Assembly (NCBI GenBank): GCA_003486645.1
Contig: DNGI01000115.1
Location: forward strand, 10,338 to 22,474
Source of the DNA: Cyanobacteria bacterium UBA11370
Lineage (GTDB): Bacteria; Cyanobacteriota; Cyanobacteriia; Cyanobacteriales; Coleofasciculaceae
Direction of reading: 5' to 3'
Length of the DNA: 12,137 nucleotides
The notes below the pieces were generated by a model. The model did not search any database. It was not told the DNA's origin and saw nothing but the letters and a program-made list of their open reading frames with translations. Made by a program: the position numbers and the translations under genes. This document shows positions 1 to 10,713 of the stretch, one piece after another (within the stretch, counting starts at the first letter, position 1; the number at the start of each line of letters is the position of its first letter).

Positions 1-30
1 CCCAATCCGTTGCCACATCCGTTGCCAAGA

Positions 31-1164
31 ATGACTTCTAAAATCTTACAAATAGAAAACCTAACCGTTAGTTTTGACGGATTCAAAGCCCTCAATAACC
101 TCAACTTCACGATGGATACCGGGGAGTTGCGGGTAATTATTGGCCCAAATGGGGCAGGAAAAACCACATTTTTAGATGTCATTACTGGGAAAGTTCAACC
201 CACTCAAGGACGGGTACTCTTCAAAGGACGCAATGTACGGCGTTTGTCAGAAGATAAAATTGCACGGCTAGGAATTGGTCGCAAATTCCAAACCCCCCGT
301 GTTTACCTTAACCTCACTGTTCGAGAAAACTTAGATTTAGTTTGTAATCGCCATAAAAATGTTTTTTCGACCTTATGGGGTCATGCTTCTGTATCAGAAC
401 AACGTACTGTAACAGGGTTATTAGAAACCATTGGTTTAGTTGCCAAAGCAGATTTACAAGCAGATTTACTTTCTCATGGCGAAAAGCAACGCTTAGAGAT
501 TGGAATGTTAGTCGCCCAGTCGCCCGATTTATTACTCGTCGATGAACCTGTAGCAGGATTGACAGATGAAGAAACCGAAAATATTGGGGACTTACTGTTA
601 GCTTTGGCAAAGAGTCATTCCATAATTGTAATTGAACATGATATGGAATTTGTCCGACAAATTGCGCGAAAAGTAACTGTACTGCATGAAGGTTCGGTAT
701 TATATGAAGGTTCAATTGAAGATGTACAGAATGACCCGCGTGTGATAGAAGTTTACTTGGGGCGACCGCCATCTATCAATGCCGATCAGATGAAAATGCT
801 ACGGATTGTTGCTGCTATGGCATGGTCGGATGGAAATCTGGCGCGGGAGGAAGCTGATTTAATAATATCTCAGTTTAGTAAATTGTTTTCTAGCGAGATA
901 GAAGAACAAGAAAAATTGCAAGCTGAATTAAAAGATTATCTCGTGCAAAATGTCCCGATTGATGAATTAGTTTCTCAAATTGAAAGCCCAGAAGAACGCG
1001 AATTGATTTTGAAGTTAGGGTATGAAGTGATTAGTGTAAGTTCCCGTAATCCTAATGAACCTAATATTAATGAAGAAGAAACTATCGCTTACAAACGACT
1101 CGTTAAGCTTTTCAATTTACCAGAAGAGGTAGTCAAGCGTTTGGAGGTAGAAACTGGAGAATGA
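31..1164 (+). CDS. urtD: Urea ABC transporter ATP-binding protein UrtD with C-terminal TerB-like extension
   Basis: ATPase subunit of the high-affinity urea importer UrtABCDE, acting on the cytoplasmic face of the plasma membrane. Numbered from a TTG at base 10, the ABC domain spans about residues 8-256: Walker A GPNGAGKT (45-52), signature LSHGEKQR (from 154), Walker B ending in D178-E179, and H-loop H210. LIV-type ATPases usually read LSGGQ or LSHGE, and RKFQTPRVYLNLTVRENL is typical of UrtD. Residues about 260-384 are extra compared with the usual ~250-residue UrtD and look like a TerB-type helical domain, with an acidic SDGNLAREEADLI motif and a second acidic EPNINEEET segment. The ATG at 31 starts MTSKILQIENLTVSFDG, matching the family start. 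The frame is open to the window edge, so a longer protein cannot be excluded. The stop overlaps urtE by ATGA. urtABC should lie just upstream. The family call is firm; the role of the extension is unknown. Confidence 0.93.
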   Translation: MTSKILQIENLTVSFDGFKALNNLNFTMDTGELRVIIGPNGAGKTTFLDVITGKVQPTQGRVLFKGRNVRRLSEDKIARLGIGRKFQTPRVYLNLTVRENLDLVCNRHKNVFSTLWGHASVSEQRTVTGLLETIGLVAKADLQADLLSHGEKQRLEIGMLVAQSPDLLLVDEPVAGLTDEETENIGDLLLALAKSHSIIVIEHDMEFVRQIARKVTVLHEGSVLYEGSIEDVQNDPRVIEVYLGRPPSINADQMKMLRIVAAMAWSDGNLAREEADLIISQFSKLFSSEIEEQEKLQAELKDYLVQNVPIDELVSQIESPEERELILKLGYEVISVSSRNPNEPNINEEETIAYKRLVKLFNLPEEVVKRLEVETGE

Positions 1165-2278: not shown

Positions 2279-2417
2279 ACATCGATATGGCAAGGTAAAG
2301 GGATATTTAGTATCAGTCTAGTGTAATTTAAATTTTCCCCACTCCCTAATTAATAACCTTTTTTCGGTGTTTTGCATATAGTTGAAAAATGACTCTATCC
2401 GATTTGCCCTTTGTCTT

Positions 2418-4199
2418 ATGCAACACTCCCAATCTGGTATCCTTAGTAACACTCAAACCTCAAATCGTTCTCAGAAAACTGATCAAGTTAGTCGAGTCAC
2501 CACTCCTAAACTCTGGATTAACCGCCTAACCCGTCGCTGGAGTATTCATCAAAAAATCGGTTACGGATATTTTTTAGCGGTTGGAATTGCCGTGATGGGT
2601 ACTACCGTCGGGTTAATCGTCGGAGAATACTATGATGAAGGGGCAAGGGAGGCTTTAGAAATTACTCATGAACGGTTGGATCGGATAGGTCATTTAGAAA
2701 AAGCTTTTACTACGGTAAAGTGGCATCAGCAACAGTTAATTTATCTAACTAAAAAAAAGACCCCTGAACTACAGCATATTATAGAATTAGATAATAGTAT
2801 TATTAAGGCTGAACAGCAACTGTCTGAGCTTAAATTAAGTTTAAAAAAACAGCCACCTCTACCCGGTTACGATGCAACAACATCAAAAGGATTGGTAGCA
2901 ACCTGCGATAAAGAATTGTTAGCGTATCATCAGTTAGTTGAATCTCTCTTAGAGAAATTTGATGCCCAGGCTCTTATAACAGAAAAGATTGAAGGAGTAC
3001 AGCCCATCTTATTAACAACTATCGAAGAAGAGTTATCACCTCAATTTGCCCAACTTTCTACCAGTTTAGCACAACTCATTGAATCTACAGAAGCTCAACA
3101 GAAGCAAGCAACCTATACGTTTAAAAAAGCTAAAGTTTTACGAGGCAGTATTATTGCAGCGAGTATGATGCTATCAATGGCAATTGCTGCCGCTTTAGCC
3201 TTCTATACAAGTCGAGAGATTGCTCGTCCAATTCAAGCTGTTACCCGTGTTGCCCAGCAAGCTACTCAAGACGGGAATTATGATGTGCAAGCCCCTGTTA
3301 CAACTGAAGATGAAATTGGCGTATTAGCCACCTCTCTTAATCATCTCATTGAACGAGTTTCCACTCAAATTCGAGAGCTAAAACAAGCCCAAGTTCAATT
3401 GCTCCAAAGTGAAAAAATGTCGAGTCTAGGGCGGATGGTAGCCGGAATCGCTCATGAAATTAATAACCCCGTTAACTTTATCTACGGCAACCTTACCTAT
3501 GCTAATGAATATACCCAAGATCTTTTGGAACTCTTACATCTTTATCAACAGCACTATCCCAACCCATTGCCCGAAATTCAAAACAAAATAGAAGAAATTG
3601 ACCTCGATTTTTTAAGCGCAGATTTGCCGAAAATTGTAGATTCCATGCAGGTAGGAGCAGAACGTATCCGCCAGATTATTCTATCTTTGCGAAACTTCTC
3701 TCGTCTTGATGAGTCAGATCGGAAACGGGTTAATATTCATGAAGGAATTGACAATACATTGTTAATTATGAGTCCTCGCCTAAATCAGGGTATTGAGGTG
3801 ATCAAGCAGTATGATAACTTGCCTTTAATTGAATGCTATCCAGCTCAACTCAATCAAGTCTTCATGAATATTATTAGCAACGCAATTGATGAATTGTTGG
3901 CGAATACAAAATTATCGCTAAAGCAGATTTGTATTCAAACTAAACTCATTGAATGCAACAAAATTGAGGTAACTATTTGCGATAATGGATCTGGCATTCC
4001 TCCAGAAATTCTGGATAAAATATTTGATCCCTTTTTCACAACTAAGCCTGTGGGACAAGGGACGGGTATGGGATTAGCAATTTCTTATCAAATTATTGAG
4101 AAACATAACGGCAAAATAGAGGTGATTTCTGAATTGGGGCAAGGCGCAAAATTTGTTGTTAATTTACCCATAGAACCGAGTTTATTAAAGAAGTCGTAA
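2418..4199 (+). CDS. Membrane sensor histidine kinase with HAMP domain
   Basis: Two-component sensor kinase, 593 residues from this ATG. Order: short cytoplasmic N-terminus; TM1 about 51-70 ([18 protein letters not shown]); an extracytoplasmic helical segment about 71-243; TM2 about 244-263; HAMP about 265-318; coiled coil; HisKA with phospho-acceptor H346 in [12 protein letters not shown]; HATPase with N-box [10 protein letters not shown] (N488), G1 box DNGSGI (522-527) and G2 box GTGMGLAIS (from 548). The [14 protein letters not shown] insertion after the H-box is typical of cyanobacterial kinases of this class. There is no receiver domain and no response regulator in the window, so it is an orphan here and its signal is unknown. 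A TTG at 2382 would add 12 residues and sits just after an in-frame stop. Neither start has a clear Shine-Dalgarno; ATG is preferred. Confidence 0.92.
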
Positions 4200-5217: not shown

Positions 5218-6039
5218 ATGAGTGTTGTTGTCAATTCGAGTCGTATCAATCCGTCTTTCAACTCTCATTTCAAGTCTCAAGTGATATCTTATGGCAGAAT
5301 TTCGGTTGATATGGATTCATGCCAAGTTACTTATGATGGCACAATAGTTCCCCTACTTCCGAAAGAATATAGTCTATTATTATTTTTTCTCAAATATCCC
5401 AATCATGTTTTAAGTTATGAAGCGCTAATAGAAGGGATTTGGGAATTTGATAAATGTCCTACCCATAGTAGTATTCGATCCCATATCAAAGGATTGAGAA
5501 AAGCGTTTAAGAAAGCTGATGCTCGTGCTGAAGCTATCATTGAAACTGTCCATGGTGTGGGATATCGATTAAAACTTTTACCGAAAGATAAACTGATTAA
5601 TTCCCTGATTTCACCTTCCCTTTCTCTAATGACAGGATTACTGCAAGCTAAAGGATTAGAATATTTGGTAATTAATGAAGAATTTATAATTAAATCTATA
5701 TCCCCAGGTTTAGAGAATTATTGTGATTATCCGGAAACGTTGAAACTTGGTATTCAAGCAACAGAAGCTTTTCCGGAGTTTGTGGGATTTGAAAAATTTT
5801 TCAAATCTATTCTTACTAAAGAATGTAATAATCTTATAGTCAAAGCGATCGCCAGAGCAGCTAATCCGCATAGACCTGCATATATCAATTTCTATGTAAT
5901 GACCGATGATTCAACCTTCTTAGATGAACAAGAAGATAAACTTTTATTTGTTTTCTTTGAGGATGCGTCTGAACAGATGCTTTACAAGCAACGACTCGTT
6001 CAACTAGAAAATGAATTTTATTTAACGCGAGAAGTCTAG
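5218..6039 (+). CDS. Winged-helix transcriptional regulator with C-terminal PAS-like domain (paralogue 1)
   Basis: Probable one-component DNA-binding regulator, 273 residues. Residues about 25-118 form an OmpR/PhoB-type C-terminal effector domain placed at the N-terminus: LLPKEYSLLLFFLKYPNHVL, the W75 region, recognition helix SSIRSHIKGLRKAF (84-97) and the wing IETVHGVGYRL. There is no receiver domain and no phospho-acceptor aspartate. Residues about 146-255 look PAS-like: EYLVINEEFIIKSISPGLENY resembles the PAS N-terminal strand pattern, and FFEDASEQMLYKQRLVQ resembles the D-I-T-E-R exit motif. About half of the aligned residues are identical to the 9871 protein. No signal peptide or membrane segment. 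The start lacks a Shine-Dalgarno but aligns with the paralogue. A tnpB remnant begins within a few bases of its stop, so the C-terminus may have been trimmed. The DNA-binding call is firm; PAS is an inference from pattern. Confidence 0.87.
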   Translation: MSVVVNSSRINPSFNSHFKSQVISYGRISVDMDSCQVTYDGTIVPLLPKEYSLLLFFLKYPNHVLSYEALIEGIWEFDKCPTHSSIRSHIKGLRKAFKKADARAEAIIETVHGVGYRLKLLPKDKLINSLISPSLSLMTGLLQAKGLEYLVINEEFIIKSISPGLENYCDYPETLKLGIQATEAFPEFVGFEKFFKSILTKECNNLIVKAIARAANPHRPAYINFYVMTDDSTFLDEQEDKLLFVFFEDASEQMLYKQRLVQLENEFYLTREV

Positions 6040-6057: not shown

Positions 6058-6397
6058 ACCCAACACTGGAGCAACAAGTGCTACTATCTCAGCATTTTGG
6101 TTGTGCTAGATGGTGGTGGAATTACGCTCTGAATAAGTCAATTGAGACTTACGTAGAAATTGACCGTTGGTTCCCCAGTTCTAAACTCTGTTCTAATTGC
6201 TATTACCAAATTAATGAGTTGCCACTTGATATTAGAGAGTGGATTTGTCCCAATTGTGGTACTCATCACGACCGAGACGGTAATGCCGCAACAAATATCA
6301 GAACAGAAGGTATCAGAATGCTACAGACGGATGGAACAGCCGTCTCTGCTAACGGAGGGGAAGTAAGACCAAAGTTGGGACGTAAGTCCGTTCTGAT

Positions 6398-6428
6398 AGC
6401 GAAGCGGGCGAGCGTACCCGCTCGACGG
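6398..6428. repeat. GC-rich palindrome inserted in the tnpB tail
   Basis: CGAGCG (6409-6414), loop TACC, CGCTCG (6419-6424) is a perfect stem. A second pairing, AGCGGG with CCCGCT, overlaps it. The segment is much more GC-rich than its surroundings and interrupts the usual TnpB tail, changing it to AKRASVPARRHSP. It looks like one of the small palindromic dispersed repeats common in cyanobacterial genomes. Confidence 0.5.
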
Positions 6429-6454
6429 CATTCCCCCATGATGTTAGAAGCCTA

Positions 6455-6478
6455 CACTATAGTCGCTTCGACTTAGTG
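6455..6478. repeat. IS right-end hairpin
   Basis: CACTA, bulged T, AGTCG, loop CTT, CGACT, TAGTG: a 10-bp stem with one bulge, 12 bases before the presumed cleavage tetranucleotide TCAA. Subterminal imperfect hairpins are the transposase recognition structures of IS200/IS605 elements. The tnpB remnant's stop codon lies in the 3' arm. Confidence 0.65.
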
Positions 6479-6486
6479 TGGGTAGT

Positions 6487-9027
6487 TCACTCAACTCTTT
6501 GGGTTCGTTCGGTCAAACTAGCAACCACTGTTGTTAATTCAACTAAATTAACGGGTTTAGCCACGTGCATTTGAAAACCCGCAGAAAGCGCCTGTGTTCG
6601 GTCTTCCACTCTGGCATAAGCCGTCAGTGCTACGGCGGGAATTCGTCCCCCTTGTTCTGCCTCTAGCGCCCTCACATTGCGGATCAGAGTGTACCCATCT
6701 TCATGAGGCATCCCGATATCACTGACGAGTAAATCCGGTTTTAGACGTTCCAGCCTATTTAGGGCTTCTGCTGCTGAGGCAACGGCTGTGACTTCAGCAC
6801 CACACTGAATTAGGATTGTAGAGATTAACTCGCGGGCATCTGCTTCATCATCAACCAGTAGAATATGCAAACCCTCCAATGTTGGAGGATTGTCAAATGA
6901 CGGTTCTCGGCTAGCCGTTGAGTACACTCGTTCTAGGTTACTTACCTCTCGTGCAACCGCCAGGGGAAGATTAACGATGAATTTTGACCCCTGTCCCTCT
7001 CCTGGACTTTGAGCCTGAACAGTACCACCATGGAGTTCAACTAAGTGACGAACAATCGCTAGCCCTAACCCTAACCCACCGTGAGTCCGAGTGGTGCTAC
7101 TATTCCCCTGTTGAAAGCGGTCAAAAACATAGGGCAGAAAATCAGGATTAATGCCCTGACCTGTATCACTTACTATAATTTTCACATGGGCATTAAGGCA
7201 CTCCAATCGAACCTCGACATGCCCCCCATTAGGCGTAAACTTAATCGCATTCGAGAGTAAATTCCAGGTCACTTGTTGCAATCGGTCTGGATCGCCGGAA
7301 ACAAGACCTGCTAAGGGATCAAGCGTGCTTTTAATCTGAATATTCTTCGCTTCAGCCGCTGGACGTACTGTATCAATGGCAGCAGAAATTACGGAGGTGA
7401 GTTCAACCGGGCGCACATTCAAACGCAACTTTCCTGTAATAATACGGGAGATATCTAAGAGATCGTCAATTAGGTTCGCCTGTCCCCTAGCATTACGCTC
7501 AATCGTTTCCAATGCACGAGCGGTAGTGTCTGGGTCTAAATTCCAGCGGGTGCGAAGCATTTGCGCCCAACCGAGGATCGCATTGAGGGGGGTGCGTAGT
7601 TCATGGGAAAGGATAGATAAAAACTCATCCTTCGTGCGGTTCGCAATTTCTGCCTGAGTACGAGCGGCTTTTTCCCTAGCTAGTAGTTCTTCCCGTTCTT
7701 TTTCTACTTGCTTACGTTCCGTGATATCTTCGGCAAGACCCGCGATGCGATGAACCTCTCCCAATTCATTTTTAATCGGAAATTCCCGCGCCCAAATCCA
7801 ACGAATGGAACCGTCGGATCGCACAATTCGATACTCTTCATTAAAATCGAGTTCTCCTGGGATGCGGTTTTTGAAAGCGGCAATTACACGGTCTTGATCC
7901 TCTGGATAAATCGAGTCTAGCCAGGATTGAGGTTGCTGATATAAGCTCTCACAGGAACGCCCCCAGATTCGCTCATACGTGGGACTAATGTAGAGCATTT
8001 GTTGGGCATCTGGCGGGATGAGCCAGAAAATTTCATGGATATTTTCGGCAAGTTGACGGAATTGTTCCTCACTCTCTCGTAACGACTGTTCAGTCCGCTG
8101 GCGCTCGACAATTTCCCGTTGCAATTGTTCATTCACTTGAATAATTTCAGCCGTTCGTTCTTCGACCAATTCTTCGAGGCGATCGCGGTATTGTTTTAAT
8201 TCTTCATCGGCACGTTTGCGTTCAGTAATATCCCGTTGCACCGAGATCCAGTGAGTGTACCAACCGTTATTATTCACTACAGGGATAATACTCAGCTCTA
8301 CCCAAAATTCTGCTCCATCTTTCCGGTAATTAATCAGTTCTACTACAACAGGTTGCCAGGTTTTTAAGGCGGCTGAAATTTTGTTGAGTGTGGTGCGATC
8401 GCTTTTTTCGCCCTGCAAAATTCGGGGGGTTTTTCCGAGTATTTCCTGTTGGCTATAACCTGTCATTCGGGTGAAGGCTTCATTGGCATAAAGAATGCGT
8501 GGCCCAGGTTCATGAATGGGTTCCGCTTCTGTAATCAGGACAGCATCATTCGAGTTAACAATAACGGATTCTAAAAGGCGCAGTTGTGCTTCTGCTTTCA
8601 AACGTTCTGTAATTTGGGCTTGGAGTTCTTGGTTTGCTGCTTCTAATTGGGCGGGACTTGGTAATGCTAAGGCTTGAGGAACTAAGGGGACAAGCTGTCC
8701 AGCGGTAAACACAGAAACGGCTGCTGTTCCAGCTTTGATGAATCCCGACAACCAATAAGTAGGATGCCATAGGGTCCACACTTCCATAATGTGAGTCGTC
8801 CCGCAGGCAATAATAAAGGATGCAAACAGTAGAAAAATCCAGTTAAACGGGAGATCTTTTCGCTTCTGGACAAAGTAGAATAATGTGATCGGAATGGAAT
8901 AATAAGCCAGTGCAATCAGAGAGTCGGAGGCAATGTGAAGCCAGACTAAATCGGTTTTCCACAGATAACAGTGACCATGGGGGATAAATGGACCTGAACT
9001 CAAAATAGTATTCAACAATTCCTCCAT
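6487..9027 (-). CDS. Ethylene-receptor-like hybrid histidine kinase (ETR1-type sensor, PAS-PAS-HK-receiver)
   Basis: Membrane hybrid kinase, 846 residues. The N-terminus (about 25-118) is a three-helix ETR1-type ethylene-binding domain: D35, Y42 and P46 in DSLIALAYYSIP, then I72, C75 and H79 in FIIACGTTHIMEVW, correspond to ETR1 D25, Y32, P36, I62, C65 and H69. Cys and His are the copper ligands. Then come a coiled coil and PAS 1 (about 150-270), which has GKTPRILQG where LOV domains have the GRNCRFLQG cysteine, so it is not a LOV photosensor. A second coiled coil and PAS 2 (about 325-440) follow. HisKA has H475 in SHELRTP. The HATPase has N593, DTGQGI and GLGLGLAI. A receiver (720-838) has D726-D727, phospho-acceptor D770, T802 and K824. 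The ATG at 9027 has only a weak AAGAGA upstream. The TGA (6489-6487) lies within the IS right end. The domain order resembles Synechocystis Etr1 (Slr1212) without the phytochrome/GAF domain and with an added receiver. Confidence 0.93.
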   Translation of the reverse strand: MEELLNTILSSGPFIPHGHCYLWKTDLVWLHIASDSLIALAYYSIPITLFYFVQKRKDLPFNWIFLLFASFIIACGTTHIMEVWTLWHPTYWLSGFIKAGTAAVSVFTAGQLVPLVPQALALPSPAQLEAANQELQAQITERLKAEAQLRLLESVIVNSNDAVLITEAEPIHEPGPRILYANEAFTRMTGYSQQEILGKTPRILQGEKSDRTTLNKISAALKTWQPVVVELINYRKDGAEFWVELSIIPVVNNNGWYTHWISVQRDITERKRADEELKQYRDRLEELVEERTAEIIQVNEQLQREIVERQRTEQSLRESEEQFRQLAENIHEIFWLIPPDAQQMLYISPTYERIWGRSCESLYQQPQSWLDSIYPEDQDRVIAAFKNRIPGELDFNEEYRIVRSDGSIRWIWAREFPIKNELGEVHRIAGLAEDITERKQVEKEREELLAREKAARTQAEIANRTKDEFLSILSHELRTPLNAILGWAQMLRTRWNLDPDTTARALETIERNARGQANLIDDLLDISRIITGKLRLNVRPVELTSVISAAIDTVRPAAEAKNIQIKSTLDPLAGLVSGDPDRLQQVTWNLLSNAIKFTPNGGHVEVRLECLNAHVKIIVSDTGQGINPDFLPYVFDRFQQGNSSTTRTHGGLGLGLAIVRHLVELHGGTVQAQSPGEGQGSKFIVNLPLAVAREVSNLERVYSTASREPSFDNPPTLEGLHILLVDDEADARELISTILIQCGAEVTAVASAAEALNRLERLKPDLLVSDIGMPHEDGYTLIRNVRALEAEQGGRIPAVALTAYARVEDRTQALSAGFQMHVAKPVNLVELTTVVASLTERTQRVE

Positions 9028-9870: not shown

Positions 9871-10713
9871 ATGAACGTATTGGTTGAATCTACCTATATC
9901 GATGAGACTTTTGATTTTCAAAAGATATCCTATGGCAAAATTTGGGTTGATACCCATTCATACATAGTTACCTATGAAGGTACGAAGATTACTCTACTTC
10001 CTCAAGAATATAAATTATTATTATTATTCCTGAAATACCCCAATCATGTTTTAAGTTATGAGGTGATCGTACAGCAGCTTTGGCAAACGGAAAAATGTCC
10101 AACTCCTAGTACAATTAGATCTCATATCAAAGGACTCAGAAAAGCATTCAAAACAGTTAATTCTAGCGAAAATCTCATTGAAACCGTTCATGGACTGGGT
10201 TATCGATTAAAAACGTTGGAAAACCGGAACTCGGATCATCCAATCATTTCTCCTTCACTTTCTATGATGACAACGTTCCTCAAAGCTAAAGCAATTGAGT
10301 ATGCTGTGATCAATGATCAATTTATGATTAAATATATATCGCCCGGTCTAGCTGATTATTGTGATTATCCAGAATTATTGAAGCTTGATATTCCGGCTGG
10401 GTATCCTTTTCCTGAATTGATAGGATATGAAGAAATTTTAGGACAAATTATAAATGAAGAGTCTGAGAATTTTGAGATTAAAGGGGTTGCTAGAGCGGCT
10501 AACCCTAATCGACCTGAATATATAAACTTATATATTATACCGGATAAGGAAAAAAAGACAGATTTAGGAAGAGAAAAAATTCTATTTATTTTCTTTGAAG
10601 ATTCCTCTGAACACATGATTTACAGGCAACGAATTGTTCAAATGGAAAATGAATTGTGTTTAAAGCTAGAACTTGATCCACTGTTCGTCCGTTTCCCGTA
10701 CTGTTCGCTTTAG
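9871..10713 (+). CDS. Winged-helix transcriptional regulator with C-terminal PAS-like domain (paralogue 2)
   Basis: Paralogue of the 5218 protein, 280 residues, with the same order: N-terminal OmpR/PhoB-type winged helix (about 20-114; LLPQEYKLLLLFLKYPNHVL, STIRSHIKGLRKAF, IETVHGLGYRLK) and PAS-like domain (about 142-250; EYAVINDQFMIKYISPGL through IFFEDSSEHMIYRQRIVQ). Fully conserved blocks include KYPNHVLSYE, IRSHIKGLRKAFK, ISPGL, YCDYPE and ARAANP. There is no receiver domain. AGGGA at 9860-9864, six bases before the ATG, supports the start. After MENEL the C-termini diverge: this one ends in a 15-residue tail (ELDPLFVRFPYCSL) whose DNA contains a direct repeat ACTGTTCG (10680-10687 and 10700-10707), so the tail may be recent. 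It is transcribed divergently from the ethylene-receptor-like kinase across the long intergenic region. Confidence 0.87.
   Translation: MNVLVESTYIDETFDFQKISYGKIWVDTHSYIVTYEGTKITLLPQEYKLLLLFLKYPNHVLSYEVIVQQLWQTEKCPTPSTIRSHIKGLRKAFKTVNSSENLIETVHGLGYRLKTLENRNSDHPIISPSLSMMTTFLKAKAIEYAVINDQFMIKYISPGLADYCDYPELLKLDIPAGYPFPELIGYEEILGQIINEESENFEIKGVARAANPNRPEYINLYIIPDKEKKTDLGREKILFIFFEDSSEHMIYRQRIVQMENELCLKLELDPLFVRFPYCSL

Follow-up and report, generated by a model that had tools for sequence, protein, structure and literature searches.

Introduction

Membrane receptors related to the plant ethylene receptor ETR1 form a large family that has already been described. AzoEtr1 from Azospirillum brasilense has the layout ethylene domain, PAS, kinase. 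According to the available text of PMC11819568, its residues 1-130 bind ethylene saturably when produced in yeast, the mutants C75A and D35A have been made, and D35, C75, H79 and K98 correspond to ETR1 D25, C65, H69 and K91, the last of which is proposed to be the partner of D25. GeiEtr2 from the cyanobacterium Geitlerinema PCC 7105 is a protein of 1,025 aa with GAF, PAS, kinase and C-terminal receiver domains, and it has all seven residues required in ETR1 (excerpts of PMC6682694). SynEtr1 (UirS, Slr1212) from Synechocystis PCC 6803 combines a membrane domain of this type with a bilin-binding GAF domain and a histidine kinase, and signals to the separate regulators Slr1213 and Slr1214 (PMC6508509, PMC3546692, as far as available). 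In ETR1 itself, three helices with the required residues are followed by a GAF domain, a kinase and a receiver (PMC6586836, in part).

Domain organization of the window protein

The window, i.e., the whole stretch of 12,137 nucleotides analysed here from Cyanobacteria bacterium UBA11370, contains on its minus strand an open reading frame of 846 codons with an ATG start and no internal stop. We suggest that its product is a hybrid-kinase member of the bacterial ETR1/SynEtr1/AzoEtr1 family and serves as an ethylene receptor in the membrane, a reading to which we give a probability of about 80%. The features are as follows.

6487-9027, minus strand: ethylene-receptor-like hybrid histidine kinase, 846 aa (open reading frame, Pfam, five relatives 76-97% identical along the full length)
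8959-8982, minus strand: PHGHCYLW (residues 16-23), a motif whose H17 and C20 are conserved (alignments; putatively extracytoplasmic)
8662-8949, minus strand: three-helix ethylene-binding domain ETR1_N, residues 27-122 (Pfam, E 7.5e-44; AlphaFold2 helices)
8923-8925, minus strand: D35, equivalent to ETR1 D25 (alignment)
8791-8805, minus strand: CGTTH with the predicted Cu(I) ligands C75 and H79, equivalent to ETR1 C65 and H69 (alignment)
8734-8736, minus strand: K98, equivalent to ETR1 K91 (alignment; role from the available text of PMC11819568)
8221-8499, minus strand: first PAS domain (PAS_9, residues 177-269), LOV-like, with GKTPRILQG lacking the photoactive cysteine (Pfam, PDB matches)
7735-7995, minus strand: second PAS domain (PAS_3, residues 345-431) (Pfam)
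7438-7632, minus strand: HisKA, residues 466-530, with phospho-acceptor H475 (Pfam and alignment)
6958-7296, minus strand: HATPase_c, residues 578-690, with N589/N593, D621, G623, G651 and G653 kept (Pfam and alignment)
6523-6864, minus strand: receiver, residues 722-835, with D726/D727, D770, T802 and K824 (Pfam and alignment)

The ETR1_N match scores 148.4 bits against a curated Pfam cut-off of 27, and its E value rules out a chance match. The preliminary description had the protein carry PAS domains and its own receiver and lack a phytochrome-type GAF domain. All of this agrees with Pfam, which finds two PAS domains and the receiver, and no GAF match at E ≤ 0.001.

The catalytic set is intact, with H475, the N and G boxes for ATP binding, and D770 and K824 of the receiver. 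When the window protein is aligned with 33 relatives picked by hand from the best 120 listed proteins (34 sequences in all), the catalytic residues of kinase and receiver are invariant or nearly so, D727, D770 and K824 being nearly invariant. With its HisKA/HATPase motifs and the receiver phospho-acceptor intact, the protein is predicted to work as a hybrid kinase. Such a kinase needs an output partner, and none is seen within the window: among the window proteins scanned with Pfam there is no receiver-bearing regulator and no HPt gene.

Compared with AzoEtr1, the ethylene domain is collinear, the HGxC motif, PAS and kinase are shared, and both proteins have PAS without GAF (PMC11819568, available text). 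However, AzoEtr1 is a protein of 525 aa with one PAS region whose receiver is a separate downstream gene, whereas the receiver of the window protein is attached. GeiEtr2 shares with it the cyanobacterial origin, PAS, kinase, C-terminal receiver and all seven residues, but the window protein has two PAS domains and no GAF. Judged from the published descriptions, as far as available, the window protein differs from SynEtr1 in having its own receiver and no neighbours like Slr1213/Slr1214. It also lacks the bilin-binding GAF domain that marks a dual ethylene and light receptor of the SynEtr1/UirS type. The contrast with Slr1212 drawn in the preliminary description is thus correct for the missing GAF and the attached receiver, but it is less noteworthy than it appeared, since receivers occur in GeiEtr2 and in 91 of the 120 best listed relatives (phmmer with the window's own receiver). 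PAS without GAF is also frequent among these 120 (Pfam annotation). Compared with ETR1, the window protein has PAS in the place of GAF, and HGxC where ETR1 has the C4/C6 disulfide pair (PMC2799528, in part).

The predicted ethylene-binding pocket

All seven residues required in ETR1 are found in the window protein, as D35, Y42, I45, P46, I72, C75 and H79. The ETR1 set is D25, Y32, I35, P36, I62, C65 and H69. The requirement for seven residues is given in the available parts of PMC6682694 and PMC11819568, while excerpts of PMC6586836 name I35, P36 and I62 beside the copper ligands C65 and H69. The preliminary description had listed D35, Y42, P46, I72, C75 and H79, each of which is indeed at that position; it omitted I45 (ETR1 I35) and K98 (ETR1 K91), which are present as well.

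The AzoEtr1 sequence was taken from an A. brasilense plasmid record (L088:2974-4551). We identify this open reading frame, which encodes 525 aa and is followed by a gene for a 135-aa response regulator, as AzoEtr1 because its length, its first residues (from the primer) and its neighbour match the available text of PMC11819568. In both proteins, ETR1_N covers residues 27-122 and profile positions 2-97; residues 1-130 align without a gap between the two, and D35, C75, H79 and K98 carry identical numbers. When residues 1-128 of ETR1 are aligned, D25, Y32, P36, I62, C65 and H69 share columns with their window counterparts. Thus, given the gapless alignment, the same Pfam positions and the published assignment between AzoEtr1 and ETR1, the copper ligands are not out of register: C75 and H79 are in register by profile, by AzoEtr1 and by ETR1 alignment. 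Residues 1-130 are also 50-55% identical to seven Azospirillum records over 77-81% of the segment. With the required residues in register, ethylene binding through Cu(I) is still plausible, as was proposed from the sequence at the outset. By analogy with AzoEtr1 and ETR1, the best reading is that the window protein probably senses ethylene via Cu(I).

Conservation was assessed in 280 aligned domains: those of the window protein and AzoEtr1, a further 158 taken from loci, and those of the 120 listed proteins. Among 191 loci, 163 had a domain match and 28 had none; of these 163, five were set aside (three own-genome duplicates, the window-copy locus, and the AzoEtr1 locus, aligned separately). 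All 103 close-set matches in other genomes (29 + 74) were taken, and L191 had no usable match. C75 is kept in 256 domains, H79 in 266, D35 in 267, Y42 in 273, I45 in 272, P46 in 236, I72 in 253 and K98 in 261, rates that flatter because the 120 listed proteins are the most similar ones. Of 104 rows (102 from relatives and two own paralogues), 80 retain C75, 90 retain H79, 91 retain D35 and 68 retain P46; therefore, loss of the pocket is common. After removal of duplicate cores and four partial rows, 254 rows were scored, and 26 of them lack C75, H79 or D35. The window copy belongs to the side with an intact pocket. Asn, which in place of the Asp reduces affinity about 100-fold according to a review (PMC13012798, in part), stands at position 35 in 6 of the 280 domains; the window protein has Asp.

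Structure models and topology

For residues 1-150, AlphaFold2 predicts helices at 25-55, 62-87 and 91-120 (monomer; mean pLDDT 83, pTM 0.63), and the three-helix N-terminus proposed for modelling in the preliminary description is thus recovered as a prediction. Residues 11-19, H17 of the HGxC motif included, are placed with low confidence (pLDDT below 50). In the model of the whole protein (mean pLDDT 74), the secondary structure fits two PAS domains, kinase and receiver; the domain arrangement is not defined, since pTM is 0.39, and pLDDT of the membrane domain is only about 58-70. Searched against the PDB, the modelled fold of the membrane domain gave 115 matches (50 listed), of which none reached E ≤ 0.001 and the best had 0.62; a solved counterpart was thus not found. 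By the positive-inside rule for membrane topology, K55-R56-K57 suggest that the loop after helix 1 is cytoplasmic. In the model, D35, C75/H79 and K98 would then be some 7-12 residues away from the ends of the helices on the extracytoplasmic side, with HGxC just beyond these ends. For ETR1, EPR data fit neither published model completely (PMC13012798, available text).

Relatives and occurrence

Residues 1-130, used as a query, match 4,853 of 5,052 candidate proteins at E ≤ 0.001; the best 120 of these matches form the protein list used here. The domain is found in 31 of 37 close-set genomes and 53 of 194 genomes sampled from the phylum, own genome counted in both, and in 19 of 72,556 plasmid records. 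Carriage by phages can be dismissed at E ≤ 1e-5, as 50,697 phage records gave no match to residues 1-130. A full-length orthologue was not found in the close set, where 11 of 36 other genomes match at E ≤ 1e-150 with residues 294-844 only (26 candidates scored per genome, not exhaustive). One of these matches, G035:C125, also has an ethylene domain and is 70% identical over 432-840; since its open frame is 607 aa, it is a shorter relative without space for both PAS domains. Three further ethylene-domain open frames are very short, at 198 aa (G048:C18:28765-29049), 199 aa (G072:C54:182228-182512) and 212 aa (G133:C11:93557-93844), and at these lengths may have no kinase in the same chain.

The own genome (88.5% complete) has three ethylene-domain copies: that of the window, one on contig C195 (L086; 781-aa open frame) with an intact ethylene site, and one on contig C112 (L087) that is degenerate, with C75S, P46G and C20S. 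The degenerate copy (L087:1091-6964) belongs to a hybrid kinase of 1,958 aa (open frame 1,975 aa) with a LOV-type PAS carrying an intact GRNCRFLQG, a GAF domain, HisKA/HATPase, two receivers and an HPt domain. It is possibly a light receptor that retains a dead ethylene domain.

Proposed mechanism and alternatives

In the mechanism that we propose, the three N-terminal helices of a dimer would enclose a pocket where Cu(I) would be coordinated by C75 and H79, close to D35 and K98, and would be the site at which ethylene binds. The resulting change may travel through a coiled coil and the two PAS domains and either lower or raise autophosphorylation at H475. Integration by the PAS domains and transfer within one hybrid protein had been put forward in the preliminary description as a possibility, and it stays one here. 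H475 would hand its phosphate to D770 in the protein's own receiver; partners whose genes lie elsewhere would be phosphorylated from D770 or straight from the kinase. Copper and ethylene binding are put forward here by analogy with the described receptors, and the dimer and the signal path are what we infer for the window protein.

In principle, the same Cu(I) pocket could serve as a sensor of copper, redox state, CO, another alkene or another small molecule, ethylene binding being incidental. The wide distribution of the domain in the phylum (53 of 194 genomes) and the additional conserved motif with His and Cys close to the pocket would suit such a role. We consider it unlikely, however, in view of the ethylene-binding residues kept even beyond the copper ligands, and of published reports of ethylene responses mediated by SynEtr1 and AzoEtr1.

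The LOV photoreceptors among the PDB sequence matches of the first PAS suggest another reading, in which this LOV-like domain would make the protein a light receptor comparable to SynEtr1/UirS and the ethylene domain would play a secondary part. The LOV motif with the photoactive cysteine is NCRFLQG. At this place the window protein has GKTPRILQG, the cysteine is likewise missing in the five closest relatives, and a GAF domain is absent; light sensing by the first PAS is rejected for lack of this cysteine, and a light receptor of this kind is very improbable. None of the 120 best listed proteins (of 4,853) has the motif, and among 88 ethylene-domain open reading frames longer than 400 aa, many of which end at locus borders, only the own degenerate paralogue does (L003, the same as L087). 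That the kinase is a relic which no longer signals is hardly credible either. Degenerate members are common (the 26 of 254 rows above, L087 of the own genome included), but the window copy is intact throughout and has its full-length relatives at 76-97% identity.

The receptor is ordinary for its kind and, as such, an expected finding. As a cyanobacterial homologue it is clean and collinear, with an ethylene pocket predicted to feed a one-piece hybrid kinase, and its genome offers a comparison of intact with degenerate ethylene domains.

The HGxC motif before helix 1

The motif P-H-G-x-C-x-x-W before helix 1 is common to the bacterial domains; of the 280 aligned, 253 retain H17 and 264 retain C20. 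HGxC is present in 7 of 7 proteobacterial domains from plasmid records and absent from the Deinococcus one (nine of the 19 records examined, one cyanobacterial and eight non-cyanobacterial). In the Rhodovastum domain (L213), D35 and K98 are lost and HGxC is retained.

With copper-intact rows defined by the presence of C75, H79 and D35 (duplicate cores and four partial rows removed), 227 of 228 such rows have C20 and 221 have H17; among the remaining 26 rows the counts are 11 and 8. For C20 the Fisher p is 2e-16, although the rows are related. On a tree of 254 tips, built with the tested columns excluded, none of the losses of C20 falls on copper-intact branches and 8 fall on copper-lost ones, while the corresponding figures for H17 are 5 and 10. 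The direction is the one seen in the row counts. One copper-intact tip, L173, has no C20, and the reconstruction assigns this loss to a copper-lost branch. The losses of T85 are likewise 0 and 8, and S105, Y91 and I45 also have 0 on copper-intact branches. Because these residues behave alike, the link between C20 and the copper site is not specific to the motif, and the tree association does not mark HGxC as a copper motif.

The ETR1 dimer is joined through Cys4 and Cys6, which also aid ethylene binding (PMC2799528, available text), and the accessible part of PMC6682694 remarks on the lone N-terminal cysteine and suggests a disulfide. C20 is likely to have this role, a dimer disulfide as already suggested in print, which would explain C20 but leave H17 unexplained. 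An idea to which we give little probability is that PHGxC (H17, C20) acts on the periplasmic side as a docking site for Cu(I), loading or protecting the C75/H79 pocket. If true, bacterial receptors would take outside copper via their own N-terminus, in contrast to an N-terminus that forms only a plant-type disulfide dimer. HGxC is in any case a simple mutational handle on receptor assembly or copper loading in bacteria.

Neighbouring genes

The kinase is flanked by genes for two paralogous proteins (5218-6039 and 9871-10713, both plus strand), 56% identical, each with an N-terminal Trans_reg_C winged helix and no receiver; their C-terminal halves have no convincing Pfam match. At E ≤ 1e-30, one copy of this regulator is found in each of nine other relatives, and therefore the flanking pair is particular to the own genome among those searched. 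In seven of the nine, ethylene domains are on other contigs only; G005 has both on the same contig, the nearest about 476 kb away, and G017 has the regulator and no ethylene domain. Linkage of regulator and kinase is thus seen in 0 of 9 genomes, several of them fragmented assemblies (two have 9 and about 50 contigs), and on this basis is rejected. Scans for promoters (7 vs 6.4) and terminators (3 vs 3.5) were at chance level.

Between the kinase and one regulator is a C-terminal remnant of TnpB of the IS200/IS605 type (6078-6476, plus strand). At 10-1164 (plus strand), the window encodes UrtD, the ATPase of a urea ABC transporter, with about 130 extra C-terminal residues whose DUF533 and TerB matches are weak and below cut-off. 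A second sensor histidine kinase, with HAMP, HisKA and HATPase and without a receiver, is encoded at 2382-4199 (plus strand).
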